Shown: positions 18,744 to 60,683 of the stretch, in pieces
Layout: each line of letters opens with the position of its first letter
Position numbering within the stretch: the first letter of the stretch is position 1
Assembly (NCBI GenBank): GCA_021323375.2
Contig: JAJPCT020000017.1
Location: 62,001-126,000 of the forward strand
DNA: 64,000 nt
Source: Candidatus Wolframiiraptor gerlachensis
GTDB taxonomy: Archaea; Thermoproteota; Nitrososphaeria_A; Caldarchaeales; Wolframiiraptoraceae
Direction of reading: 5' to 3'
Made by a program: the position numbers and the translations under genes
Notes under the pieces: model-generated
Database searches by the model: none
What the model saw: only the letters and a program-made list of their open reading frames with translations
Told to the model about the DNA's origin: nothing

Positions 18744-20660
18744 ATGGCGGATGGAAAGCTTTACGGCTATGCGGGCAAGATTCTCCGCGTCAACCTCTCG
18801 AAGGCAAAGATCGTGGAGGAGGATCTTAGGCCAGATCTACTGAAGCTCTACTTGGGAGGGACGGGCTATGCTGTGAGAATGCTATGGGATAGCCTTGAGA
18901 AAGGAATAGACCCGCTTAGCCCCAAGAACCTGTTGATAGCATGCACCGGGCCGCTCACGGGCACCCTGACACCATGCTCTGGCAGCGTCGAGTTCGCCTT
19001 CAAGTCGCCGCTGACAGGGATCTTCGGCCAAACTAGGGCTGGAGGAAGATTCGGGCCGAAGTTAAAGTATGCAGGCTACGACTTCATAATAGTTGAGGGT
19101 GCATCAGATAAGCCCGTCTACCTTAGCATCATGGACGGGTCGCCGGAGCTTAGGGATGCATCTCATATCTGGGGCAAGACCGTTCACGAGGCGACCGATA
19201 TCCTGCTCGAGGAGGTTGGTGATCCTGAGGCGTCTGTCGCATGCATCGGGCCGGGAGGCGAGAGACTGATCAGATACGCGAGCATAATGGTCGACTATGA
19301 TCGGGCTGCGGGGAGATGTGGTGGAGGCGCTGTGATGGGATCTAAGAGGCTGAAGGCGATAGTGGTGAACGGTGACCGCGATATTGAGGCCGCTAAGCCA
19401 GACGAGTTCTATGAGGCCGCTCTCGAGGCAATAAAGGCTGTGAGTAAGCAGGGCAGGGGGTCACTAGGCCAGTTCGGAACCGTGGGCGGATTGCTTGGGC
19501 TGAACGAGTCAGGAGCCCTGCCGACGAAGAACTTCCAGACATGCTACTACGAGGAGGCTGAGAAGATGTCGGGCCAGGAGCTCGCGAGGAAATACCTACT
19601 TAAGCGAAGGGCGTGCATGGGATGCCCGATCGGGTGCGGGAGATATGTCTGGGTTCCATCGGGCCCATATATGACGCCGCCTCATGAGGGGGCCGAGTAT
19701 GAGACCACGGACATGATCGGCGTCCAAAGCATGATAGGCTCTCTTGAGCCCCTCATCAGGGCGGATTACCTCTGCAACACCTATGGCATAGACACGATCT
19801 CGGCTGGAAACGTGATCGCATTCGCGATAGAAGCATATGAGAGGGGCTTGATAACGGATGAGGATACGGGTGGGATTAAGTTGAGGTGGGGCGATGCTGA
19901 TGCCTGTTTAAAGCTCCTCGAGCTTATCATCGAGCGTAGGGGTATTGGGGATCTCTTGGCCGAGGGTGTTAAGCGCGCCGCCGAGAAGATCGGGAGAGGT
20001 GCTGAGGACTTCGCATGTCATGGCAAGGGATTGGAGGTGCCGGCCCACGATACCCGAGGAACATCTAAGTCTTTCGCGATCCAGTATGCTATTGGTAATC
20101 CGAGGGGCGCATGCCATATCGAGCCGCTATGGGCTGGGATGTGGGACTTCTCCAGATCAAGCCTAGGGCTTAGGGAGCTCGGATTACCATGGCCACCGCC
20201 GAGCAGGTTCGAGGAAGTTGGTGTCAAGAGGGGTGAAGCATGTAGGCTTCTCTGGCTCTATGGTGAGCTCGCGAGCATACTCGGGATATGCAGGTTCAGC
20301 ATGCAGGGAGGAGAGGATGAGATACTCACGCCGGCGAGGCTCTCACGCCTAGTTTCAACGCTAACGGGATGGGGTCTCACTCCTAAGGACTTGATCAAGA
20401 TCTCTGACAGGGTCTATACGCTGAAGCGCTGCTTCAATGTGAGAGAGGGGGTTAGTAGGAAGGATGATAGGCTTCCGAGGAGGCTTATGGAGCCCCTTGC
20501 AACAGGGCCCACGAAGGGTCAGAGGGTAGAGAACCTCGACGTAATGCTCGATGAGACATATGAGGCTCTTGGATGGGATAAGAAGACCGGGAAGCCTACG
20601 AGGGAGAAGCTGAAGGAGCTTGGGCTCGATGATGTAGCTGAGGTCATTTGGGGAGGCTAA
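18744..20660 (+). CDS. Aldehyde:ferredoxin oxidoreductase family tungsten enzyme
   Basis: 638 residues. The N-terminal domain starts GYAGKILRVNLS, with the substrate/cofactor-binding GRCGGGAVMGSKRLKAI segment and the 4Fe-4S motif CMGCPIGC near residue 290. Length and motifs fit the AOR family, which oxidises aldehydes to acids using a tungsten bis-pyranopterin. The paired ferredoxin suggests an AOR/WOR-like member and not the FOR or GAPOR types, but substrate cannot be read from the sequence. Co-located with moaA. Confidence 0.93.
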   Translation: MADGKLYGYAGKILRVNLSKAKIVEEDLRPDLLKLYLGGTGYAVRMLWDSLEKGIDPLSPKNLLIACTGPLTGTLTPCSGSVEFAFKSPLTGIFGQTRAGGRFGPKLKYAGYDFIIVEGASDKPVYLSIMDGSPELRDASHIWGKTVHEATDILLEEVGDPEASVACIGPGGERLIRYASIMVDYDRAAGRCGGGAVMGSKRLKAIVVNGDRDIEAAKPDEFYEAALEAIKAVSKQGRGSLGQFGTVGGLLGLNESGALPTKNFQTCYYEEAEKMSGQELARKYLLKRRACMGCPIGCGRYVWVPSGPYMTPPHEGAEYETTDMIGVQSMIGSLEPLIRADYLCNTYGIDTISAGNVIAFAIEAYERGLITDEDTGGIKLRWGDADACLKLLELIIERRGIGDLLAEGVKRAAEKIGRGAEDFACHGKGLEVPAHDTRGTSKSFAIQYAIGNPRGACHIEPLWAGMWDFSRSSLGLRELGLPWPPPSRFEEVGVKRGEACRLLWLYGELASILGICRFSMQGGEDEILTPARLSRLVSTLTGWGLTPKDLIKISDRVYTLKRCFNVREGVSRKDDRLPRRLMEPLATGPTKGQRVENLDVMLDETYEALGWDKKTGKPTREKLKELGLDDVAEVIWGG

Positions 20661-20696
20661 ACCTCAAAACCCCATTCATCCAAGTGTATAGCGGGG

Positions 20697-21704
20697 TTGA
20701 CGACCATAAGTCCCGATGAGAAGCTGGTCCTCGGCATAGAGTCCACAGCACATACATTCGGCGTCGGAATAGCATCAAGCTCCGGCAAGATACTGGCCAA
20801 CGTGAATTACGTTTACCGGCCGAAGGAGGGCGGGATACATCCAAGAGAGGCGGCTCAGCATCATAGCAGGATAGCGGCAAAGGCTCTGAGGGAGGCTCTC
20901 GAGCAGGCTGGCGTGAAGCCCATGGACCTCGATGGAGTAGCATTCTCAATTGGGCCCGGAATGGGGCCATGCCTCAGGGTCGGTGCCACGGTGGCACGCG
21001 CTATCGCACTAAGGCTCGGCAAGCCCCTGATAGGCGTTAACCATAGCGTAGCCCATATCGAGATCGGGAGGCTCGCGACCGGCTGCAGGGACCCGGTCGT
21101 CCTTTATGTCGCCGGAGGCAACACGATGATCACGAGCTATATCGATGGCAGATACAGGATCCTTGGTGAGACCTTGGATATAGCTGCTGGAAACTGTCTC
21201 GATGTCTTCGGGATAAAGGCTGGCATAGGGCCCATGCCGGCCCCGGAGGAGTATGCTAGGAGGGGTGAGAGGTTTCACCCGCTCCCCTACCGGGTTAAGG
21301 GAATGGATGTCTCATTCTCAGGCCTCTTAACAGCGGCCCTGAAGCTCCTCGGAGAGGTTAGGCTCGAGGATCTCTGCCTCAGCATAACCGAGACCGTTTA
21401 CAGCATGCTGACAGAGACTCTTGAGAGGGCGCTGGCATATGCTGAGAAGGAGGAGATACTTCTCGTGGGCGGGCTCGCTAGAAGTAGGAGGCTAAGGGAG
21501 ATGATCGAGGAGATGGCGAAGCTTCATGATGCGAGGGTCTACACGGTGCCCCCGGAATATGCTGGTGATAACGGGGCGATGATCGCCTGGACAGGGGTCC
21601 TCCAACTCATCGCGGGCCAGACTCTGAGGATCGAGGAGAGCAAGGTTAGGCCTAGATTCAGGCTAGATGAGGCCGAGGCTAGATGGAGAATGCTAGGTCT
21701 ATAG
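20697..21704 (+). CDS. kae1: tRNA N6-adenosine threonylcarbamoyltransferase Kae1
   Basis: 335-residue catalytic subunit of KEOPS, which adds threonylcarbamoyl to A37 of ANN-decoding tRNAs. The ASKHA fold is seen in GIESTAHTFGVG, the metal-binding HxxxH at His116/His120 (HSVAH), VAGGNT, and GMDVSFSGLLTA. The start is TTG at 20697. Archaeal Kae1 and Bud32 are often fused; here they are separate, adjacent genes. Confidence 0.95.
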   Translation: MTTISPDEKLVLGIESTAHTFGVGIASSSGKILANVNYVYRPKEGGIHPREAAQHHSRIAAKALREALEQAGVKPMDLDGVAFSIGPGMGPCLRVGATVARAIALRLGKPLIGVNHSVAHIEIGRLATGCRDPVVLYVAGGNTMITSYIDGRYRILGETLDIAAGNCLDVFGIKAGIGPMPAPEEYARRGERFHPLPYRVKGMDVSFSGLLTAALKLLGEVRLEDLCLSITETVYSMLTETLERALAYAEKEEILLVGGLARSRRLREMIEEMAKLHDARVYTVPPEYAGDNGAMIAWTGVLQLIAGQTLRIEESKVRPRFRLDEAEARWRMLGL

Positions 21705-21715
21705 GGGGAAGAGTG

Positions 21716-22378
21716 ATGATTGGGGAGAGGCTTGAGGTCATTAGGGTCGGCGCAGAGGCCGTTGTCTCCCGGCTCGAGTGGAATGGATTCAAGATGGTGT
21801 CGAAGCACCGTGTGCCGAAGCCCTACAGGTTCCCGGAGCTTGATAGGTTGGTTAGGGATAGGAGGACCCTGCATGAGGCTAGGGTGATCATGAACTTGAG
21901 GAGGCTTGGGATACCATGCCCGGCGATCCTCCTCATGGATAGGAGCGAGGCGACGCTCTACCTCCAGCTAATCGAGGGCGTTGAGCTAAAGAAGGCCCTA
22001 GACTCGCTGCCAGTCGAGGAGGTTGAGAGGCTGGCAAACATGCTCGGTAGGATTGTTGGGAGAATGCATAGGGGCGGCATCGCGCATGGCGACCTCACAA
22101 CATCAAATATCATGCTCGATAGGATGGAGAACCTCTATCTCATAGACTTCGGCCTAAGCACTATAACAAATGACCCGGAGGAGCTGGCCGTGGACATACA
22201 CCTCCTTGATAGAAGCCTAGAGAGTGTTCATCATAGGTTGAGGGCGGTGTTTATGAGGAGCTTTCTCAAGGGCTACGCAGCCGCGGCTGGCATGGACTTC
22301 CTACAAGCATTAATCGAAAAGGTTAAGGAGATCAGAAGTAGGGGGAGATATGTTGAGGAGCGGAGAAAGAGGTATTAG
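21716..22378 (+). CDS. bud32: KEOPS complex atypical kinase Bud32
   Basis: About 220 residues. Kinase-like motifs include the Lys in MVSKHRV, the catalytic loop HGDLTTSNIM and the metal-binding DFGLS. It works as an ATPase with Kae1. The start at ATG 21716 follows the Kae1 TAG by 11 bases and has GGGGGAAG as a strong Shine-Dalgarno; in-frame starts inside Kae1 are less likely. A GTG directly before the ATG is also possible. Confidence 0.94.
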   Translation: MIGERLEVIRVGAEAVVSRLEWNGFKMVSKHRVPKPYRFPELDRLVRDRRTLHEARVIMNLRRLGIPCPAILLMDRSEATLYLQLIEGVELKKALDSLPVEEVERLANMLGRIVGRMHRGGIAHGDLTTSNIMLDRMENLYLIDFGLSTITNDPEELAVDIHLLDRSLESVHHRLRAVFMRSFLKGYAAAAGMDFLQALIEKVKEIRSRGRYVEERRKRY

Positions 22379-22958
22379 ATTCGTGGTCGTGACGAGCAAT
22401 CTTGGAAAAGCTAGGGAATTCGAGAGCATCTTCTCCGAATATGGATTGAGCTTCAGGATTGAACCCATTAAGACGCCGGAGATACAGGCAGTGGACCTGA
22501 GGATAATTGCTGAGCAGAGCGCGATCTATGCCTATGATATTCTCAGGGAGCCCGTGCTAGTCGAGGACGCAGGTCTCTTCATAGACGCGTTAAACGGCTT
22601 CCCGGGACCATTCAGCAGCTACGTCTACAAGGCTATCGGGATAAGAGGAATACTGAAGCTCATGGAGGACGTTGAAGATAGGAGGGCGCGATTCCTATCA
22701 GTCATAGCATTCTACACGCCGATGATCGGCGGCGTCAAGATATTCACGGGGGAAGTTGAGGGGTATATAGCGAGAGAGCCCCGCGGCTCCAGCGGCTTCG
22801 GCTTCGATCCAATATTCATCCCGGCTGAGGGCGATGGGAAGACGTTCGCCGAGCAGAGCGTTGAGGAAAAGAACAAGCTCTCTCATAGGGCGAGGGCTGC
22901 TAGGAAATTCGCCGAGTGGATGCTATCGCTCGAGCCCATCTCGCCGGCATACGAGTAG
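22350..22958 (+). CDS. rdgB: XTP/dITP diphosphatase (RdgB/HAM1)
   Basis: 202 residues. Starts with the TSNLGKAREFE substrate loop, has VEDAGLFIDALNGFPGPFSSYV and GSSGFGFDPIFIPAEGDGKTFAE, all signatures of the family that removes non-canonical purine nucleotides. Overlaps the Bud32 3' end by 29 bases, so it is third in the Kae1-Bud32-RdgB operon. Confidence 0.95.
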   Translation: MLRSGERGIRFVVVTSNLGKAREFESIFSEYGLSFRIEPIKTPEIQAVDLRIIAEQSAIYAYDILREPVLVEDAGLFIDALNGFPGPFSSYVYKAIGIRGILKLMEDVEDRRARFLSVIAFYTPMIGGVKIFTGEVEGYIAREPRGSSGFGFDPIFIPAEGDGKTFAEQSVEEKNKLSHRARAARKFAEWMLSLEPISPAYE

Positions 22959-22961
22959 CCC

Positions 22962-24545
22962 TTAAATCAGCCCAATCCTCCTCCTGAGATACGATGATGG
23001 AAGACTTCTAATCCAGTTCAGATCATTTATGTAGAATGTTCTTATGTCGTCTAGGTCGTAGAGCGCGAGGGCAAGCCTCTCCAATCCTCCTCCCCATGCG
23101 AGGACTCTATGCTTTACTCCCATGGGCCGGGTTACCTCGGGCCTGAAGATTCCCATGCCGATGAGCTCGAGCCAGGTCTTCTTATCCTCGAGATATGCTA
23201 TCGCCTCCGCCGACGGCTCCGTGTATGGGAAGTAGCTTGGCCTAAACCTGACATTCTTAAGCCCAAGCCTAGCGTAGAACTCCTTGATCAATCCCAGTAG
23301 GTCCCTGAAGGACACGTTCTCGCCCATCACTATCCCCTCGATCTGATGGAACTCTGCGAGATGCTTCCAGTCAACCTTCTCATTCCTGTATATCCTGTCA
23401 ACTGAGAATACCTTGACTGGCGGCTCCCGGTGATCGGCGAGCCACCTGATTGTCGTGGCGGTTGTATGCGTTCTCAAGAGGAGCTTTCTTGCTTCATCCT
23501 CCCTCCACTTATAGCCCCATCCCGTAGACCCTGTATCACCTCCATCCTCATGTGCCCGCTTAACAGGCTCCACGAGATGCATGGGTAGGTCGCCCATCTC
23601 AGGCTCGGCTAGATAGAACGTGTCATGCATCTCCCTCGCGGGGTGGTCTTGGGGCTGGAAGAGGGCGTCGAAGTTCCAGAAAGCCAGCTCGACAAGCGGG
23701 CCCTTAATCTCCTCAAAGCCCATCTCGACAAACACCTCTCTCACGATCCTTATCAGCTCCCTCAGCGGATGCCTCTTGCCGGCGAAGACTGGCGGCGTCG
23801 GCGCCTGCACATCGAACCTGCTAAACCTCACCTGTCTCCACTCGCCCGATACAAGCATGCTGGGCGTAAGTCTGGTAACCTCCCTAACCTCGAGAAGAGA
23901 GTCATCGAGTTTTAGGAGGGCTTCACTCGGCTTCAAGACATGAATTCTCTTGATCTTAACCTCGAGCACGCCGGGCCTCGAGGCAAGCCGCTGACAAGCC
24001 CCCCTCAAGTCCTCCGGGATCTCCGAGGCCTCCCTCTCACCATCCCTCAGAATCCTGAGAAGATGCTCCTCAGGAAGCTCGCTGGGCTCCGAGACAAGTC
24101 TAGCATAAACATTCTCGCCAATCTTCTCGATATCTATCCATCCCATCCTGCGAGCCCAGTTAACTCCAATCCTGAACTCCTTCTCTCCAAGCTCCTTCTC
24201 CAATATCTTTAGGTCAAGCCTTCCACCAGCTGCCTTAAGCATCTCTATGAGTCTTCTTTCCGGGAAACCGCGCTCCGCATAAATCCGCCCCTCCTCGCCA
24301 AGTCCATAGAACCTTCTCTCATACTCCTCAACCGTTACCAGTCCTTTGCTCGATAACCAGAGAGCGGCTTTCGCGATCGAGCCGACATCCCTGCCAATGA
24401 GCTCCGCAGCTTCCTCGAAGGTGAGCGGCCTACCAGCCCGCTTTAAAGCCCTAGCAACCTCCCTCTCAAGCCAGTGGAGAACAAGCTCCGAAACAATAAC
24501 CGGTCCCTCGCGATCACGGCATCTCCAGCGAGATTTAAGCCTCAC
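22962..24545 (-). CDS. pheS: Phenylalanyl-tRNA synthetase alpha subunit
   Basis: 527 residues, the archaeal/eukaryotic length. Winged-helix N-terminal domains precede the class II core with motif 1 near FVEMGFEEIKGP, motif 2 in RTHTTATTIRWLA...FSVDRIYRNEKVD and motif 3 in WGGGLERLALALYDLDDIR. GTG start at 24545. The beta subunit gene is not next door. Converges on rdgB with only three bases between the stops. Confidence 0.95.
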   Translation of the reverse strand: MRLKSRWRCRDREGPVIVSELVLHWLEREVARALKRAGRPLTFEEAAELIGRDVGSIAKAALWLSSKGLVTVEEYERRFYGLGEEGRIYAERGFPERRLIEMLKAAGGRLDLKILEKELGEKEFRIGVNWARRMGWIDIEKIGENVYARLVSEPSELPEEHLLRILRDGEREASEIPEDLRGACQRLASRPGVLEVKIKRIHVLKPSEALLKLDDSLLEVREVTRLTPSMLVSGEWRQVRFSRFDVQAPTPPVFAGKRHPLRELIRIVREVFVEMGFEEIKGPLVELAFWNFDALFQPQDHPAREMHDTFYLAEPEMGDLPMHLVEPVKRAHEDGGDTGSTGWGYKWREDEARKLLLRTHTTATTIRWLADHREPPVKVFSVDRIYRNEKVDWKHLAEFHQIEGIVMGENVSFRDLLGLIKEFYARLGLKNVRFRPSYFPYTEPSAEAIAYLEDKKTWLELIGMGIFRPEVTRPMGVKHRVLAWGGGLERLALALYDLDDIRTFYINDLNWIRSLPSSYLRRRIGLI

Positions 24546-24580
24546 GTGGCGCGAAAAGAGCTTCTAGCCGAGGAGTCTTA

Positions 24581-24655
24581 CGGGCCCGGGGGGACTCGAA
24601 CCCCCGGTCTTCGGCTCCGGAGGCCGACGCCCTATCCAAACTAGGCCACGGGCCC
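24581..24655 (-). tRNA. tRNA-Arg (CCG)
   Basis: 75-base cloverleaf on the minus strand with acceptor GGGCCCG/CGGGCCC, anticodon loop CTCCGGA (anticodon CCG) and discriminator G. No intron and no encoded CCA. Confidence 0.92.
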
Positions 24656-24735
24656 CTCTAACAGCCTCTCCCGATCCGCTTGCTATTGATCTTTTCTTCT
24701 CATCTTTTTAATCTTCGGCCAGCACTTCTTAACAA

Positions 24736-24890
24736 ATAAAAACGGGGAGGAAATGGGGTGGGGCTGGCCGGCGAGCTGTCGTAGCTGGGGGTTGGCGGGC
24801 CACCAGCTCTAACCACCACAAAGGATCTGTGGTGGGAGTCGTGGGTTATGCCACCAACCCTTCATAGCTTTTACTGCCCACCGGCCAGCA
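24736..24890 (-). ncRNA. Structured RNA candidate at the 3' side of the IS110-type remnant (possible bridge RNA)
   Basis: A GC-rich segment with nested inverted repeats: outer 9-bp arms 24763-24771 and 24881-24889; a second stem GGGTTGG (24789-24795) with CCAACCC (24854-24860), extended by two more pairs; and an 8-bp hairpin 24813-24820 with 24828-24835. Downstream on the minus strand comes CCGTTTTTATTT, a possible terminator. Elements of the IS1111 branch of IS110 carry their bridge RNA at this side of the transposase. The structure is read directly; the role is inference. Confidence 0.4.
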
Positions 24891-25559
24891 AGTGCTGTTT
24901 CTGTTGCTGCCATGCCTTCTTCAGGATCCTTACAATTCTTAGCTGTAGCTTGTAGACCGCCTTCTTGGGTGATAACCCCTCCAGATCCCTGAGGAGCTCT
25001 GCATTAATTCCGAGTCGTTTATTGTTAAGATAGACATTCATTGCGAGCCTTAAGAGGTGTGCACGTAGTCCACGATGATGGTTTTTGTTTTTATGAGGTG
25101 TTAAGCCCAACAGGCCATATAGTCTGCTAAGCTTCCAGTTTAGCGGCAATCTCGCCACTAGTATCGCCCCCATCTCACGTACATCTCGTACTCCCCTATC
25201 AACCTCAATAGGTCTACCTCCCTTGCTGGAAGCTATTTGAAGTGGTTTTTCGGGATCACACTCAGGAGCTTTGCATCAACCTCATCGGACTTCCTAAGCC
25301 CATTCTCCTCCCTCAACTTCTTCACCAACCTCTTATTCTTCAGCAGATACACCTTAACACCCTTCCTCAACGATTCCAAGACTTCATCGTATAGCTCTAG
25401 GAATAGCGAATCAATGTATATCTCGCTGGCGTCCTCCAGCTCCGTCAACTTCCTCACCTTAAACGGTTTCTCACCATCAAATACCGTATGAGCCTTATTC
25501 TTCCCCCTCTTCTTTCCGTCAACGGAGATCGCCGTATCAACATAGTAGACCCCACTCAT
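24871..25559 (-). pseudogene. IS110-family-like transposase, broken
   Basis: Two parts. 25233-25559 (from ATG 25559) resembles the DEDD N-terminal domain of IS110, with VKVYLLKNKRLVKKL and RKSDEVDAKLL. It stops at TAG 25233-25235, yet the same frame continues LPAREVDLLRL for about 20 codons; then one base shift joins 24871-25173, which has LYGLLGLTPHKNKNHHRGLRAHLLRLAMN, like the Transposase_20 domain. The total of about 230 codons is short of the usual 300-400, so the middle may also be deleted. Not active as read. Confidence 0.55.
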
Positions 25560-25693
25560 AGTTCTCTACTCCCTCCAACGGATCTCTTGGGCTCGCCGCA
25601 TAGAGTCTTAACGGTCGTGACTCCAACATATTGGGCATAGGCCCTAGCGAAATCATCCATCCTCCCAAGATTCTCGAGCACAAAAGTTCGCAA
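25556..25693 (-). CDS. Small leader ORF before the IS110-type transposase
   Basis: 45 codons from a TTG at 25693, ending in TGA that overlaps the transposase ATG (ATGA at 25559-25556). It shares the pattern FVLENL-x-R...FA...VG..T...L with the small ORF before the TnpB gene at 38535-38645. Upstream frames carry further coding-like pieces, so it may be the end of a longer, frame-broken protein. Function unknown. Confidence 0.4.
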   Translation of the reverse strand: MRTFVLENLGRMDDFARAYAQYVGVTTVKTLCGEPKRSVGGSREL

Positions 25694-25733
25694 AAGAACC
25701 GGTGCAGCCTATCCCTATAACTTTCAATAATCA

Positions 25734-25862
25734 TTAGCATTCATTAGTATAGTCCAGAATCCTGACGAGGTCATCCAGCAACCCAGCCTCCTCAAAGCGA
25801 CCCCTGAGCCCCCTATATATCCTCTGGATCTTGGGCCCACCCATCCCCAATAAACCCACCAC
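25734..25862 (-). CDS. 42-codon ORF upstream of the IS110-type remnant
   Basis: From GTG 25862 with GGGAGGTG just ahead as Shine-Dalgarno, to TAA 25734-25736. The predicted peptide has a basic first half (PKIQRIYRGLRGRF) and an acidic helix (EEAGLLDDLVRILD). It may be the front part of the same broken accessory protein as 25556-25693, separated by a frame shift. No known domain. Confidence 0.3.
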   Translation of the reverse strand: MVGLLGMGGPKIQRIYRGLRGRFEEAGLLDDLVRILDYTNEC

Positions 25863-26044
25863 AACACCTCCCTAACACAGACCTCACTTATTCCTTGAGG
25901 ACCACCCCCGAAAATGAAAAACGGTGGAAAACCCACCCTTATAGAGTATAAGGAAAATGCTACTTGTCTTCGCGATTGAGGTTGGGATTTAAGCTCATTT
26001 ATATATGAATCCCGCCGGGCCCGAACTTCTCGTAGGGAGATCAA
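25863..26044 (+). promoter_or_regulatory. Spacer with TATA box of sua5
   Basis: CATTTATATATG at about 25997-26008 lies some 37-48 bases before the ATG at 26045. Otherwise the spacer shows no gene. Confidence 0.4.
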
Positions 26045-27169
26045 ATGACTATGGTTTTATTCATCGCTCCGCCTATTCAGGCTGGGAGTTGGGAAGTGGC
26101 TAGGACGCGGATAGTCAAGATCGACCCAATTAATCCCGAGGAATACATCCTCGTGGAGGCTGCCGAGGTTATCAAGCGTGGAGGCCTCGTGGCCTTCCCC
26201 ACGGAGACCGTCTACGGCCTCGGAGCCGACGCCTATAACCGCGATGCCGTGAGGAGGATATTCGAGGCTAAGAAGAGGCCTATGGATAACCCCCTGATAG
26301 TCCATATCTGCGATCTCGAGTGGCTCGAGAGCGTCACGAGAAATGTTCCAGAGGAGGCACGTAGGATCGCGGAGAGGCTCTGGCCCGGGCCGGTAACCCT
26401 CGTCCTCTGGAAGTCTCATGAGATCCCGGCTGAAGTCACCGCTGGCCTGCCGAAGATCGCTGTGAGATTTCCATCACATCCTGTCGCCATGGGTCTTATC
26501 AGGCATAGCGGGGTCCCCATAGCTGCTCCAAGCGCGAATCTCGCAGGCAGGCCATCACCAACCACAGCGCAGCACGTGATCCAAGACCTCTATGGCAGGG
26601 TTGACGTGATACTAGATGGAGGTGAGACGCTCTTCGGCGTGGAGTCGACGATAATAGACTTGACAAGTGAACCTCCTAAGCTGCTGAGGCCCGGCCCGAT
26701 CCCTGTCGAGGACTTGGAGAGAGTACTGAGGACACAGATAAGCATCCCCAATCATGCTAGGGGATTGTCGGAGGCGGAGATCGCGGAGTCCCCGGGCATG
26801 AAATACAGGCATTATGCGCCGGAAACACCTCTCAAACTTATCGAGGCGTTGGACTACCATGACCTAGCCTCATACTCGGCGAAAGTCCTTGAGATAGCTG
26901 AGGAATATCGCTCAAGGGGCTTTAAGGTCGTGATCCTCGCATCTCGGGAAACATGCCGGACCTACGTAGAGAGAGGCTTCGAGGTCATCGAGCTTGGATC
27001 TAGGAAAAATTTCTACGAGATAGCAAGAAACCTCTTCAACAGTCTTAGGAGGGTTGATGAGACAGGAGCGGATCTAGTGATCGCCGAGGGCTTTGAGGAG
27101 AGAGGGCTGGGGCTAACAATAATGAATAGGCTTAGAAAGGCTGCGAGACAGGATAGACTACTCGTCTAA
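26045..27169 (+). CDS. sua5: L-threonylcarbamoyladenylate synthase Sua5
   Basis: 374 residues. The YrdC domain carries FPTETVYGLGADA, KRPMDNPLIVHI, PSANLAGRPSPT and the GVESTIIDLT loop; a C-terminal Sua5 domain (about 255-370) follows. It makes TC-AMP from Thr, bicarbonate and ATP for Kae1, which is in the same window at 20.7 kb. The first about 20 residues (to EVARTRIVKIDP) may be extra; a GTG at 26096 is an alternative start. Confidence 0.93.
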   Translation: MTMVLFIAPPIQAGSWEVARTRIVKIDPINPEEYILVEAAEVIKRGGLVAFPTETVYGLGADAYNRDAVRRIFEAKKRPMDNPLIVHICDLEWLESVTRNVPEEARRIAERLWPGPVTLVLWKSHEIPAEVTAGLPKIAVRFPSHPVAMGLIRHSGVPIAAPSANLAGRPSPTTAQHVIQDLYGRVDVILDGGETLFGVESTIIDLTSEPPKLLRPGPIPVEDLERVLRTQISIPNHARGLSEAEIAESPGMKYRHYAPETPLKLIEALDYHDLASYSAKVLEIAEEYRSRGFKVVILASRETCRTYVERGFEVIELGSRKNFYEIARNLFNSLRRVDETGADLVIAEGFEERGLGLTIMNRLRKAARQDRLLV

Positions 27170-27432
27170 AAGCTGTTCCTACTCTCCTCCTGGAGCGAGA
27201 GAAGGGCATTCGCCCTATGATAGAGAACACGTATCTTGAATTCCATGTCCGAGACCCTCTCCCTGAGACCCTCGGGGAGCCCTGCCTCCATTATGCTCTT
27301 AACCTCCTTCATCAGGTCCTCGAGCATCACCTTCACAAGCTCCATCCTAGCTTCTTTCTGCAATAGCTGCTCGCAGAACCGAAGATCCTCCTCGATCTCG
27401 CGGATCCTCTTCTCGGCCTCCTCAGCTTCCAT
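27166..27432 (-). CDS. Small coiled-coil protein
   Basis: 88 residues, almost wholly helical with heptad-like spacing of Leu, Ile and Met and many Glu, Lys and Arg. Resembles prefoldin- or UPF-type archaeal coiled coils in general look only. Its 3' end overlaps the sua5 stop by four bases (convergent). Confidence 0.55.
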   Translation of the reverse strand: MEAEEAEKRIREIEEDLRFCEQLLQKEARMELVKVMLEDLMKEVKSIMEAGLPEGLRERVSDMEFKIRVLYHRANALLSLQEESRNSF

Positions 27433-27526
27433 GGATACTTCAAGAGATCGAGATCACGCCCACAATAAAAGGATTATAATGCCGCTGGATGAGAATTAAT
27501 TAACAACTTGCTCCGGGCGAGATGAG

Positions 27527-28243
27527 ATGAGCGAGAAGAAATACAAGAATGATCCCCTCTGGAGCATTCTCGTTGATGTTGTTAAAATGCTTCCCCACTT
27601 CCAAGAACACCTAGCCTATGTGAGGGATGAGATTCTGCCCAAAAAGCCAGATATAAGTGCTGAGGAGCTCTCGAAGATCCTCTCAATACCCTTGGGCGAG
27701 GCCCTTGTCATTCTAGATAAGCTGAGGGAGTTTCCATGCGAGGTTGAGGAGAAGCTGTCAAGGAGCCTCCCAGACCCGGAGCATGAGCGCGTCGCCCTCG
27801 GAGGGACATTCAGCAAGCTCCATTATGGACATATGAGGCTCCTGCTTGAGGGGTTCAGGTTGGGAAAAACAGTCATTATAGGCGTGACGACCGACGAGTT
27901 CGCCAGAAAGCTCGGGAAAAAATACACCGTTCCACCATTCGAGACGAGGGTTAATGGATTAAAGTCATTCCTGCGGCGGATGGGATGGATCGATAGATGC
28001 GAGATCCTACCGCTACATGATCCATATGGCGTGACGGCGGTTGATCCAAATCTCGAGGCCCTAATAACAAGCCCCTTCACACATTACAGGGGCATTGAGA
28101 TAAATGAGATCCGCTCGAGGAGGGGACTGAGGCCCCTGAGGGTCGTGGTCTGCCCGCTGGTTGTCGCCTGGGATGGCAAGCCCATCTCAAGCACCCGGAT
28201 ATTCCTCGGGGAGATTAATGAGAGAGGTGAGCCCCTAGGTTAG
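27527..28243 (+). CDS. coaD: Phosphopantetheine adenylyltransferase, archaeal type
   Basis: 238 residues. Nucleotidyltransferase motif GGTFSKLHYGH (HxGH at 99-102) and KPISSTRI near the end mark the archaeal/eukaryotic PPAT that adenylylates 4'-phosphopantetheine in CoA synthesis. An N-terminal extension of about 85 residues looks like a helical domain not found in the shorter family members. Its stop overlaps the convergent membrane protein gene. Confidence 0.88.
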   Translation: MSEKKYKNDPLWSILVDVVKMLPHFQEHLAYVRDEILPKKPDISAEELSKILSIPLGEALVILDKLREFPCEVEEKLSRSLPDPEHERVALGGTFSKLHYGHMRLLLEGFRLGKTVIIGVTTDEFARKLGKKYTVPPFETRVNGLKSFLRRMGWIDRCEILPLHDPYGVTAVDPNLEALITSPFTHYRGIEINEIRSRRGLRPLRVVVCPLVVAWDGKPISSTRIFLGEINERGEPLG

Positions 28244-29157
28244 ACTCCCCCGAAGAAGAAGAGAACTAGGAAGATGAGAATGCCGACGATTACCGTGAGC
28301 TTCATCGAGGCCTTGTAAAGCCTCTTGAACCCCACGCTATTATACACAACGAGCCCAACATTCGAGAACAGGGAGAGGATATCCACTATCATCTCGCTAA
28401 GCCCAACCTCCTGCTTTCTAACTGGAACTCTGCTCAGCATATTCTGGTATTCAACCGAACTCCAATTGCCCACGCAAAGGTCAAGCCTCTCCGATGCAAA
28501 CTCCACGCCGCCGGAAAGCCACCTCACATTGGTGAGATTCATATATGTTCTAGTATTTTCGATTACTTCCCCAATATTCTCCGGCCTTATCATGCCCCAG
28601 TTTGGGAGCGTTAGATTTGGATAGGCGCGGTAGACCTTCACGTAGGCTGCCCTGACTATCGGCGATGTTATGTTCACGCCGCCCTCCGGCGCGATCCCGA
28701 TCAACATCGCATCCCTGAAAGTGACATTCTGAAAGTCCGCGTCAACGATCATGTAGGATACCTTGGGGGTCTGCCAAAGGAATGGCACTTGCAGTGCTGT
28801 GAATACCGCGACTATTATAAAGGAATGTGCTACCATTGTTAGAAGCTTCACAAGATTGAGATCCTCGCCTTTAAACATCACCACGAGAAGGACGACCATT
28901 AGGATGAAAGCGAAGGTTATACCCAGCTGGATCCCCCGAGTCGTTATGATAGCCTCGAAGTCTGGAGCTGTTGGGATGAGCCTCCTGAAGCCTTCCAGCG
29001 CATATACCATCTCCACCTTCTCATTAAGCACATAGCCGGTCACATATGAGACAATGAGTAACGTGGCTACGATAATTGCTAAGCCCCGGCAAAGCCTCAG
29101 CCACTTGCCAACATCCACCTGAGAGAGACGCTCTCTTAACGCCTCACGGGAGAACAA
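28240..29157 (-). CDS. Four-segment membrane protein with sequon-rich outside domain
   Basis: 305 residues. Membrane segments lie near 24-46, 74-94, 103-123 and 283-303. The loop of about 150 residues between the third and fourth holds five N-x-S/T sequons (NVT, NIT, NLT, NLT, NWS), suggesting a glycosylated external domain. No known family. It is third in a minus-strand cluster after a membrane wHTH protein and a two-segment protein. Confidence 0.6.
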   Translation of the reverse strand: MFSREALRERLSQVDVGKWLRLCRGLAIIVATLLIVSYVTGYVLNEKVEMVYALEGFRRLIPTAPDFEAIITTRGIQLGITFAFILMVVLLVVMFKGEDLNLVKLLTMVAHSFIIVAVFTALQVPFLWQTPKVSYMIVDADFQNVTFRDAMLIGIAPEGGVNITSPIVRAAYVKVYRAYPNLTLPNWGMIRPENIGEVIENTRTYMNLTNVRWLSGGVEFASERLDLCVGNWSSVEYQNMLSRVPVRKQEVGLSEMIVDILSLFSNVGLVVYNSVGFKRLYKASMKLTVIVGILIFLVLFFFGGV

Positions 29158-29188
29158 TTCTCAACCTGCCACCCACTCGAGCATCATT

Positions 29189-29542
29189 TCAGGATTTAAG
29201 CTTTGTACACCGAATCAGGAGAAATGCAGCAGCCGCCACAATCACGGAGAATAATATGTTCATGAGCAGGGAGGGGACCTCTAGCTCGGGCCCCAACCCC
29301 TCTCCGGCCTCGGTGAGCACTTCTTCGGGCCGGGCAGCCGCCTCAGCAGCCTTACGAGGTGCTGTTTCGGTGGTTATTGATTGCATGGAGAGCGTCTTGC
29401 CCTCGCCCGCCCGCAGGCTGGGCCGGATGCTTATTTGAGCGAGGTTTATGGCTTGATTTACGAGGAATGCTAGGACTAGCGCGGTGATCGCCAGCATTAT
29501 CAGCCGCTTATTCACGAGCATATCCAGGTCATCCACCCCCAT
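29189..29542 (-). CDS. Two-segment membrane protein
   Basis: 117 residues from ATG 29542 (MGVDDLDML), which lies 19 bases after the wHTH gene; an in-frame upstream start would overlap that gene. Membrane segments lie at about 14-34 and 93-111, with a Ser/Thr/Ala/Glu-rich outside stretch between. Unrecognised; likely co-transcribed with both neighbours. Confidence 0.55.
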   Translation of the reverse strand: MGVDDLDMLVNKRLIMLAITALVLAFLVNQAINLAQISIRPSLRAGEGKTLSMQSITTETAPRKAAEAAARPEEVLTEAGEGLGPELEVPSLLMNILFSVIVAAAAFLLIRCTKLKS

Positions 29543-29561
29543 AATGCTATGGATTAGAACA

Positions 29562-29987
29562 CTACCAGGTCCTATGCCTCCATATTCTGATCGTCTCGAT
29601 CCAGAAGAAGAGGGATGAGAGGCCGCCAAGGGCTATGGCGTGGAGGCTCAGGTCCGGGAAGTTCTGAGCCACATAAAGCATGAGCAGCGTTGTTATGAAG
29701 ACCGCGTAGAAGATCATTCTCGGGATAAGCCTGCCACCCACGAGCACGAACATCTTCAATATCCCGACATCAACCTTTTCCTGGGCGAGATACCTGTTCC
29801 CCTCATCCCTTAGGACGAGTCCCATCTCCCTGAGCTTCTCGAGATGGTGATGAGCGACGCTTGGGCTTGAGAAGCCGAGGGCTCTCTGAAGCTCCCTCAC
29901 GCCAACAGGCCTCCCAGCTCTAAGCAGATAAATGTAAACCTGGAGGGTCTTCCCCCTAAGCTTGTAGAGCTCATTCTCCCGCTCCAT
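29562..29987 (-). CDS. Membrane-bound winged-helix transcription regulator
   Basis: 141 residues. Residues about 8-72 form a winged helix (LQVYIYLLRAGRPVGVRELQRALG...SPSVAHHHLEKLREMGLV), of the ArsR/MarR-like type. Two hydrophobic segments follow (about 85-106 and 112-132), so the DNA-binding domain is tethered to the membrane. It is first in a three-gene cluster of membrane proteins and probably controls it or the divergent gene at 30087. Confidence 0.7.
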   Translation of the reverse strand: MERENELYKLRGKTLQVYIYLLRAGRPVGVRELQRALGFSSPSVAHHHLEKLREMGLVLRDEGNRYLAQEKVDVGILKMFVLVGGRLIPRMIFYAVFITTLLMLYVAQNFPDLSLHAIALGGLSSLFFWIETIRIWRHRTW

Positions 29988-30086
29988 TATCGGCCACGTT
30001 CATGGTATCCCCATGTCATCCTTAAAAATCTCTTGCTCCGCGTGATGGGGAGAGTCCTTGGATGATGCATGAGTGGTGATTGAGGC

Positions 30087-38021: not shown

Positions 38022-38480
38022 TCAAAGTAGTATTCTTTTAATGTTTCTTCTGCGATCTCCAAGATAATGCATCTCCACCTTACTCTTGCCATGTATATCT
38101 TGTTCTGACGAATCCATGAGATAGATGTTCTCCTCCGATATGGCCAGTATCCTGAACTCCATCCTCTCCATCCTCTTTAATCCGTCCGCGATCTCCTTGC
38201 TCAATCTTGTTGTCTCCCCGCTATCAAGCCCATTTCCAGAACCGTTTTCTATACTCCTCACATATCACCTGAACAATCTTTCCATCCACTATGACTGCGT
38301 ATCCCTTAAGCCTCTTTGTAAGGGCTATAAGCCCTCCACACAAATCATAGGCTCCCTCATACTTCTCAATATGCAGAACCTCCTTGAGCCTGCCCTTCCT
38401 ATCAACCGTTGTAACTGTAAGGGGGCTTGAGGCGAGCTCCTGAGCCTGAGGTTCAATTTCTCAGGAGGCTTCATTTTCGG
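38022..38480 (-). pseudogene. Decayed unrecognised gene
   Basis: Two coding-like pieces in different frames. One (about 38232-38450, minus) reads LTVTTVDRKGRLKEVLHIEKYEG...GYAVIVDGKIVQVI and ends WKWA-TGA. It lacks a start, but MKPPEK in another frame sits just upstream. The other, from 38261, has LSKEIADGLKRMERMEFRILAISEENIYLMD. Together they look like one protein of about 150 residues broken by frame shifts. Family unknown. It flanks the TnpB element. Confidence 0.35.
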
Positions 38481-38534
38481 GATGGTCCTTAATGAATAAA
38501 AGAGTGTCTCTATCAGGGATATGTGGGGATGTGA

Positions 38535-38645
38535 TTGCTTGGGGTTCTAGCTAGATTGTTTGTCCTCGAGAATCTTGCCAGGATTAATAATTTCGCCAAT
38601 ACATTTGGGAGAGATGTCGGAGAATCCACGATGAGGGCGCTATGA
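38535..38645 (+). CDS. Small leader ORF before tnpB
   Basis: 36 codons from TTG 38535 with a TGA overlapping the ATG at 38642 (ATGA). The core FVLENLARINNFANTFG matches the leader ORF of the IS110-type remnant at 25556-25693 in residue order and in the ATGA overlap. The upstream frame has an immediate TGA. Unknown function. Confidence 0.4.
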   Translation: MLGVLARLFVLENLARINNFANTFGRDVGESTMRAL

Positions 38646-39946
38646 AACGGGCTCAAGAGCCTGCTGGGGATGGCTGGAGGATGAGGAGGACGTGTGTGGT
38701 GGAGTTAATAGTTGATGAGGGGGCTGAGAGGAGGCTGAGGCAATTATGCGAACTTTCGTCGAAGTTATGGGATGAGGTTAATTATGCTAGGCTGAGGATG
38801 TTCCTTGAGAGAAAGTATGTCGACTTTAAAGGAACGTATAAGGAGTTCTATGAGAAGTATAGGCCGGTAATCGGTTCGGCTACGGTTCAACAAGTGTTAA
38901 ACAGGAACAATGATATATGGAGAGGCTTTTTCAGGCTTCTAAGATTGAAGAAGAAGGGAAAGCTATCACCATCCATAACTGGTGCTAGTCCGCCGGGATC
39001 TAAGAAGAGGAATAAACCTAGGATGTTATGGGCTGTTTTAAGGAAGGACCAATACAAGATAGACAGTGACAGGATTATCCTCATGGGTCTCGGTGCGATC
39101 GGCTGGATAGAAGTGGGCTACAAGGGCTTGATACGTTTGAGGAGTGAGCGAGGAGAGCTTAGGATATGCTATGATGTCGATAGGGGAAATGGTATGCCCA
39201 CATATCGCTCGAGGTCTCCGAGAAGGCTGTTAGGGAAGGATGGAAACCGGTGCCGCAACAGCCGAAGGGTAATCTAGTCGCAGGTATGGATATTAGGAAT
39301 AAACAATTTAATGGCAATCTACGTCGAAAATGGTTTAAGGAAGCTCATTAATGGTAGGCCGTTGAAGGCGATCTCGCATTACTGGAGGATGAGGATAGCC
39401 GAGTATCAGTCAATGTTGAATGGGTATGGCTTGAAGACCTCCAAAAGGCTTAGGCTGATGTACTCAAAATGGAGGAGGCAGGCAAGAGATTATATAGATT
39501 ATATAAATGCTAAGGTGAGGCAGGCTGTAGAGTGGCTCTATGATATCGGAGTTTCTACGATTAAAGTCGGCTACCGAGGAACATCATACATGAGAACGGT
39601 AACTTCGAGAATGTCCGAGTCTGGCATTATGGATACCTCCTACGGAGAATCATCGATAGTCGCAGAAGAATATGGAATAAAGGCGATCCTCGTTAACGAT
39701 GCGGACACGTCGTCAAAATGTCCAATACATGGAGATGGTGATGGGTGCGGCGCTAGGATTAGTAGGGGGCTATTCAGGTGCACGAGGCTAAACAAGGTCT
39801 TCAACGCAGACCTTGCAGCGGCATATAGTAAACTGATGACGCCGATAACCCCGAGCCCCGAAAGGGGTAGGGGTAATGGGCCGGAGACCTGGCCCGGGAT
39901 TAAACCCTCGAAAAGAGGTGATGTAATCCCAAACCTTCTCACCTAA
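38642..39946 (+). pseudogene. tnpB: TnpB (IS605/IS1341-type) RNA-guided nuclease, frame-broken
   Basis: The N-terminal domain (RRTCVVELIVDEG...LSSKLWDEVNYARLR) and the C-terminal part (HYWRMRIAEYQS, zinc-finger Cys pair CPIHG...CG...C, NADLAAAYSK, TPSPERGRGNG tail) are typical of thermophilic archaeal TnpB. Between them the frame shifts: one G seems missing in the G-run near 39184, restoring GKWYAHISLEVSEKAV, and one extra A near 39294 restores GMDIGINNLMAIYVENG with the first catalytic Asp. In the first frame it stops at TAG 39275-39277. No tnpA is found. Confidence 0.85.
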
Positions 39947-49595: not shown

Positions 49596-49630
49596 AGTAT
49601 ATTCTTCTTTCTTCTTCTTTTTCTTTGATG

Positions 49631-49719
49631 CGGGCCCGGGGGGATTTGAACCCCCGACCCCCGGGTCTCTTCCAGATATGTTAAGAGCCCGGCGCTCAAC
49701 CTGGCTGAGCTACGGGCCC
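49631..49719 (-). tRNA. tRNA-Lys (CTT) with a 15-base intron
   Basis: Minus-strand cloverleaf, acceptor GGGCCCG/CGGGCCC, discriminator G, anticodon CTT. The intron (49667-49681) lies between positions 37 and 38; its 3' end AAGAG can pair with CTCTT of the anticodon loop, giving the bulge-helix-bulge cut by the splicing endonuclease. Spliced length 74 bases. CCA not encoded. Confidence 0.92.
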
Positions 49720-60530: not shown

Positions 60531-60593
60531 CGATAAAAATCAAGCGAGCACGCTAATACGGTTCAGACCCATACTACAGGAAGATGTAGGTGG

Positions 60594-60683
60594 AGCCCCG
60601 GCCGGGATTTGAACCCGGGACCAACGGCTTTCTAGCCAAGAGTGGATACAAGGCCGCCGCTCTGCCGGCTGAGCTACCGGGGC
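60594..60683 (-). tRNA. tRNA-Thr (TGT) with a 17-base intron
   Basis: Minus-strand cloverleaf with acceptor GCCCCGG/CCGGGGC, anticodon TGT, discriminator T, and CCA present in the DNA at 60591-60593. The intron (60630-60646) is at the canonical 37/38 position. Spliced length 73 bases. Confidence 0.9.

Follow-up and report, generated by a model that had tools for sequence, protein, structure and literature searches.

The window, a stretch of 64,000 nucleotides on contig C17 of the Candidatus Wolframiiraptor gerlachensis genome (G000; a 1.28 Mb assembly in 27 contigs), carries on its minus strand a broken transposase gene which runs into a long hairpin. Two pieces of the gene remain: an N-terminal, RuvC-like remnant of 108 aa which ends in TAG (25233-25559) and a C-terminal remnant of 100 aa (24871-25173) which closes with a TAA stop at 24873-24871; about 50 codons are missing between them. 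A conserved 5′ leader, CATTTTCGGGGGTGGTCCTCAAGGAATAAG (25887-25916, minus strand), is common to many copies of the element. On the sua5 side, a 17-nt tRNA 3′-end fragment, GAATCCCGCCGGGCCCG (26007-26023, plus strand), adjoins the boundary of homology (26008) with G001, a close relative about 85-92% identical to G000.

The hairpin (24889-24763, minus strand) overlaps the last transposase codons and the stop. Three nested stems compose it: an outer one (24763-24786 with 24866-24889), a middle one (24789-24798 with 24851-24860) and an inner one (24813-24820 with 24828-24835). A first-pass annotation of this DNA had recognised the broken transposase, the nested stems, the minus-strand T-run and an outer arm within the last transposase codons; all are present at the place it gave, and the arm covers the TAA stop as well. 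Read on the transposase strand, the predicted guide RNA is a single long hairpin with the order P1, conserved internal loop, P2, variable guide loop and P3, and it matches the covariance model of its family at 112 bits. The P1 5′ arm (24876-24889) lies within the last transposase codons and its 3′ arm at 24763-24776. The 5′ strand of the conserved internal loop, AGTAAAA (24869-24875), consists of invariant columns and holds the stop codon. In P2 the 5′ arm (24851-24860) pairs with the 3′ arm (24798-24789). Between P2 and the terminal hairpin P3 (24813-24835) lie the two strands of the variable loop, the left (5′) strand CATAACCCACGACTC (24836-24850) and the right (3′) strand TTAGAGCTGGTGGC (24799-24812). 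The hairpin is followed by a C-rich stretch and the T-run GTTTTTATTTG (together 24731-24762), which are present after P1 in nearly all copies and probably mark the end of transcription.

The minus strand folds at −75.1 kcal/mol, compared with −46.1 ± 3.6 for dinucleotide shuffles (z = −7.98; none of 200 shuffles as good). An RNA from the plus strand was considered and rejected: the fold reaches only z = −2.1 there, and all elements read on the transposase strand. No Rfam family matches the hairpin, and at gathering level the region 20000-30000 yields only the neighbouring tRNA.

The hairpin is the 3′-terminal part of an element present in many copies. The genome of the window, in which a DNA search gives more than 20 related places, has about 25 of them, and further copies occur in three relatives from the same archaeal family. 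Relatives of the transposase were detected by protein search in 17 of 61 near genomes, an intact family member of 299 aa is encoded at L012:5043-5942, and the scan of named genomes gave a single deposited MAG with a relative, Nitrososphaerales archaeon KUA_Bin06. Common to the copies is the layout of the 3′ end: a 14-bp P1 over the stop codon, the internal loop AGUAAAA / UACGANN, P2, the variable loop and P3. A covariance model trained on eight copies recovers about 40, at the 3′ end of related transposase genes, including many untrained copies and another genus. In an alignment of 41 copies, 94% of cells pair and two-sided compensatory changes are present in 30 of 38 pairs. P1, P2 and P3 all covary, with 195 compensatory cells compared to 54 ± 8 when partners are shuffled, a control which is lenient because the alignment was fitted to the structure. 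These findings identify the hairpin as an RNA under conservation, as opposed to an isolated palindrome; the first-pass annotation had named lack of covariation, another RNA family or inverted-repeat ends as outcomes that would speak against its proposal, and none of these was found.

Among 300 genomes of the phylum, the RNA was detected in four, all from one family and two genera, with strict filters that may miss distant ones; no relative was found in viral contigs. Within its family the RNA very likely has a function, and the window hairpin itself is a decayed copy of this guide RNA. This decayed copy does not stand alone; it belongs to a large family. Solo 3′ arms, GGCTACGAGGACTCGCCGGCCAGCCCCACCCC, are found without the rest of the RNA at L024 1670 and L025 2128 as apparent deletion remnants. 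At L104 12035-12155 (G001:C16:12035-12155) a 283-bp insertion holds the guide RNA only, with no transposase, and the site is empty in G000; this is possibly a non-autonomous element. A more distant group of similar transposases occurs in G038, G024, G032, G028 and other genomes of the order. The model finds no such RNA there, and this group may possess guide RNAs of its own.

The variable part is one internal loop between two covarying stems. It has two strands of some 14 nt whose sequence changes in almost every copy and whose lengths vary little among 39 copies (left 13-16 nt, right 12-16 nt, one outlier). This combination of near-constant length and free sequence suggests guides. A hidden helix between the left and right strands was examined and discarded, as their complementarity in the 39 copies is not above chance. 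An H/ACA-like pocket reading one strand was also rejected, since the sense and antisense tests point to opposite strands. In the copies L021 (2115-2237) and L023 (1859-1981) the left guide strand is identical and the right strands are different, hinting at half-wise replacement of guides.

The guides were compared with the insertion site of each copy, with orthologous sites devoid of the insertion located in most of G001. To the left of the junction, one guide strand is complementary to one strand of the DNA; to the right, the second guide strand is complementary to the opposite DNA strand. Each arm matches over up to 10-12 nt, and the register is shared; the matched stretch mostly begins at loop nucleotides 3-5 (range 1-7), alike in both strands. 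When guides were permuted among 14 copies, the observed mean of 15.96 compared with 10.60 ± 0.59, and no value that high occurred in 100,000 permutations; on the wrong strands these guides gave a negative result (p = 0.15). Both arms score at the junctions of L013 (10/11 and 10/11), L072 (11/11 and 10/11), L074 (10/11 and 9/11) and L088 (11/11 and 8/11), and single scores are 11/11 for L026 and 10/11 for each of L010, L017, L021 and L023. With fixed 11-nt guides in nine copies, the arms at 9/11 to 11/11 were never equalled by the guide of another copy.

Individual copies illustrate the relation. In L013 the right strand equals CTTAGCCGAG at the left junction and the left strand is antisense to GCTTCTTTCT at the right junction. 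The guides match TTTGAAAGTAG and AGCCATAGTT in L074, whose empty site in G001 reads TTTGAAAGTAGCAATAGTTCATCG, and GGGAAATAGGTT and GTTTAAGCCT in L072; the matches are GAATGCTGATT in L010 and TCCTAAAATGCC in L026. The relation is kept in L088, L014, L021 and L023, where the element lies in the other orientation; for L088 the matches are CTGGCGGAAGCT and, read from the empty site, CAAGCCTTAAA. When 1.15 Mb of G001 was scanned without bias, the top dual match was the exact orthologous empty site for L088 and L074, and the empty site of L072 ranked fourth. The reciprocal test, which covers part of G000, finds that the G001 copy L103/L081 matches 15/16 nt and a further 8 nt within a tRNA-like gene of G000; support from other G001 copies is weaker or partial (L161, GTAcAgACCTT; L104, ATGCATTCT; L157, AGCTACCGGG). 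The distance between junction and guide match reaches about 30 nt in some copies, and scans within 80 nt of the right flank gave weak signals only until the true junctions were fixed. At the boundaries of L015, L022 and L018, and for the window copy against its present flanks, no convincing match was found, which we assume to reflect decay or wrong boundaries. Since the variable strands correspond to the DNA that flanks each landing place on either side, the RNA most likely sets the insertion site of the element.

The guides of the window copy lead to a tRNA gene. Nucleotides 4-11 of the left guide are antisense to CGTGGGTT of the T-arm of tRNA-Arg(CCG), and nucleotides 4-14 of the right guide have the same sense as GAGCTGGTGGC of this tRNA. 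The two combine into the 18-nt GAGCTGGTGGCGTGGGTT, which is contiguous in the tRNA-Arg(CCG) of G005, from anticodon stem to T-arm; both halves are also present in the G001 tRNA-Arg(CCG) beside pheS. A related G001 element, L049, sits within the 3′ part of a tRNA-Arg beside sua5 in the opposite orientation. Together with the 17-nt tRNA fragment, these observations indicate that the window copy was most likely aimed at a tRNA-Arg gene of this locus. The tRNA that now stands beside the window element differs in sequence from the guide target. The window copy is probably a relic whose target was the tRNA-Arg(CCG) gene between sua5 and pheS, as reconstructed from the relatives.

Several features of the tRNA genes accompany this picture. 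The tRNA-Arg(CCG) of G001 beside pheS (L183 471-562; G001:C95) contains a tandem duplication of about 17 nt exactly at the predicted target of the window RNA, possibly an excision scar. In the window (24545-26045), the tRNA-Arg(CCG) between sua5 and pheS is inverted relative to G003 (L070), with the element at the breakpoint of the inversion. At 60591-60683 and 49630-49719, ARAGORN calls odd tRNAs whose anticodons are unresolved; the former is 95% conserved in G001, where the family element L157 lies at its end.

The affiliation of the transposase is less direct. DEDD_Tnp_IS110 (PF01548) is the family that most members match, and the best of them reach 15-20 bits, below the cut-off of 29. Transposase_20 (PF02371) has no match in the genome or in the family members, and the family alignment holds no conserved serine that could be the catalytic serine of the SG motif. 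Canonical archaeal IS110s have about 10 aa more in this segment, and a tyrosine nearby, around residue 231, is conserved in 18 of 20 family transposases. Where a RuvC-like D-E-D-D active site would lie, a pattern YVD...(D50)...KSDExD is conserved in the family, with the acidic E position reading D. Alignment of the family to canonical IS110s by hhalign gives 11% probability. The fold predicted without a deep alignment is poor; a partial model of low confidence (pLDDT 61) has the bridge recombinases ISCro4 and IS621 as its top four PDB matches, at E-values of 0.1-0.7, which are not significant. The label 'IS110-like', used from the start, holds as a distant relationship only and not as family membership: the PF01548 scores stay below the cut-off, and PF02371 and the serine motif were not found.

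The ends of the elements are equally unusual. Ends at CATTTTCGGG and just past the hairpin were considered at first sight plausible boundaries and rejected, as the comparison with G001 places the boundaries further out on both sides, at positions which differ per copy. Subterminal inverted repeats of 7-17 bp, the mark of the IS1111 group, were sought in the seven elements with junctions: none of at least 8 bp and one of 7 bp was found, at boundaries which carry some uncertainty, and no conserved element ends were found in these seven. Insertions occur in both orientations. Five clean junctions show direct repeats of 4-8 bp (6, 5, 8, 4 and 5 bp); this set is suggestive and not proof, because a generous null gives at least 4 bp in 27% and at least 5 bp in 9% of random pairs. 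IS110 and IS1111 elements, for their part, insert without longer target duplication and in fixed orientation. In both L017 and L088 the left end consists of a piece of about 110 nt whose sequence is found in unrelated host genes of G001.

We consider it very probable that the hairpin is the target guide RNA of an archaeal mobile-element family which encodes a distant IS110-like, RuvC-type transposase, and in our reading it is a variant with a single loop, for the target only, which stands between bridge RNAs and tigRNAs. In the proposed mechanism, the 3′ end of the transposase transcript would give rise to the RNA. On one side of the insertion point, some 11 nt of the right strand have the sequence of one DNA strand and would pair with its complement; on the other side, some 11 nt of the left strand would pair with the former DNA strand itself. 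Together with its protein, the RNA would then open and mark a unique site of about 20 bp, and the element would be inserted between the two halves. Binding of the RNA to the transposase, R-loop formation, strand opening, catalysis and insertion are all putative steps which we infer from the sequences. A bolder version, to which we give somewhat less than an even chance, sees a new class of RNA-guided integration: a one-loop guide, a serine-less RuvC-type transposase, staggered cuts, insertion in either orientation and a target duplication of about 5 bp, intermediate between TIGR-Tas and IS110.

The comparison with IS1111 is the first to be weighed. As in ISEc11, ISPa11 and others (PMC11187229), the RNA lies downstream of a DEDD-type transposase. 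In IS1111 seekRNAs the 5′ guide is complementary to the top strand and the 3′ guide to the bottom strand, and the two overlap in the target (PMC11187229); here too the top-strand complement precedes the bottom-strand match and overlaps it in the target (L013, L072, L074 and others). Given that the loop strands match the site on opposite strands in a common register, the RNA would work like an IS1111 seekRNA or bridge RNA. It could even be an ordinary one, with a donor loop that reads the element's own ends (perhaps AGUAAAA/UACGANN) and with oddities that stem from decay and misplaced boundaries; in many IS1111 bridge RNAs the donor nucleotides lie outside a simple loop (PMC11208160). This explanation seems rather unlikely to us. 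The termini are not conserved and so cannot be read by a conserved loop, and the lack of subterminal inverted repeats of 8 bp or more in the seven elements, the direct repeats, the two orientations and the absence of Transposase_20 and the SG motif all depart from IS1111. Unlike in IS1111, moreover, the family transposase stays below the family cut-offs, the RNA extends over the stop codon, and nearly each copy has its own guide.

The bridge RNA of IS621, an IS110 element, lies 5′ of the gene and is bispecific, with separate target and donor loops (PMC11208160, PDB 8WT6). It shares with the archaeal RNA the pairing of internal-loop strands with opposite DNA strands left and right of the core, whereas one variable loop and no separate donor loop were found in the latter, which may yet have a hidden donor contact. 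The archaeal bridge-type RNA on the IS1111 side, as the first-pass annotation had it, is supported for target recognition by loop strands which match both strands of the site in the IS1111 order; the evidence does not extend to a complete bridge RNA from a genuine IS110/IS1111 element, as one guide loop and neither a donor guide nor conserved donor ends were found, and the transposase lacks the serine motif of Transposase_20.

The tigRNA is a single stem-loop whose two spacers address opposite strands; it is symmetric under swapping and guides staggered cuts, TasR leaves staggered ends, and the IS110 bridge RNA has been called a fusion of two tigRNAs (PMC12045711). The archaeal RNA has the same layout, with one stem-loop and two opposite-strand guides in symmetric roles. 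It might be a nuclease guide of this kind, the element entering a staggered cut by repair or end capture instead of strand-exchange recombination. Insertions in both orientations, the direct repeats (AGCTT, GTAGC, TTGGA, CAAG, GAACTCCC) and the pieces of unrelated host genes at element ends agree with such a route, which we too consider rather unlikely. Five direct repeats are few and the shortest lie partly within chance, and the host fragments could be later rearrangements. TIGR-Tas is marked by a Nop-domain effector and box C/D motifs, and the likeness here lies in the RNA layout; the guides are single units, one solitary RNA per element fused to the transposase gene and not an array. That the hairpin is simply a terminator or an mRNA-stabilising structure with chance guide matches is highly improbable, despite the T-run and the overlap with the stop codon, as none of 100,000 permutations equals the own-site matches, the top genome-wide matches fall on exact empty sites, and a terminator needs no 14-nt variable strands within covarying stems.

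As a one-loop target guide, the archaeal RNA belongs to what is, on sequence comparison, a new variant of RNA-guided transposition. A literature search, with preprints and subscription papers outside its range, found no such archaeal system. A dual-strand guide RNA is thereby placed in archaea next to a transposase missed by standard Pfam models, so that such systems may be widely overlooked. If one loop suffices, the donor half of bridge RNAs would not be essential to RNA-guided insertion, which bears on the kinship of IS110 elements, TIGR nucleases and box C/D RNPs. With its own guide matched to its own site in nearly every copy, the family makes retargeting traceable within one genome, and a smaller guide of about 22 programmable nucleotides would be of interest for genome engineering.

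Lastly, the 5′ side of the elements displays recurrent features. Divergent small ORFs recur upstream of the transposases (L012, about 1075-1770; L019, L020, L011); one encodes about 95 aa with CxxC...CxxC, a second is acidic, and no Pfam match was found for them. In the window, a broken TnpB-type gene (38472-39946, plus strand; OrfB_IS605, Cas12f1-like_TNB) has upstream the same CATTTTCGGGATGGTCCTYAAKGAATAA leader as many IS110-like transposases, as if TnpB-type and IS110-like transposons shared one 5′ module.
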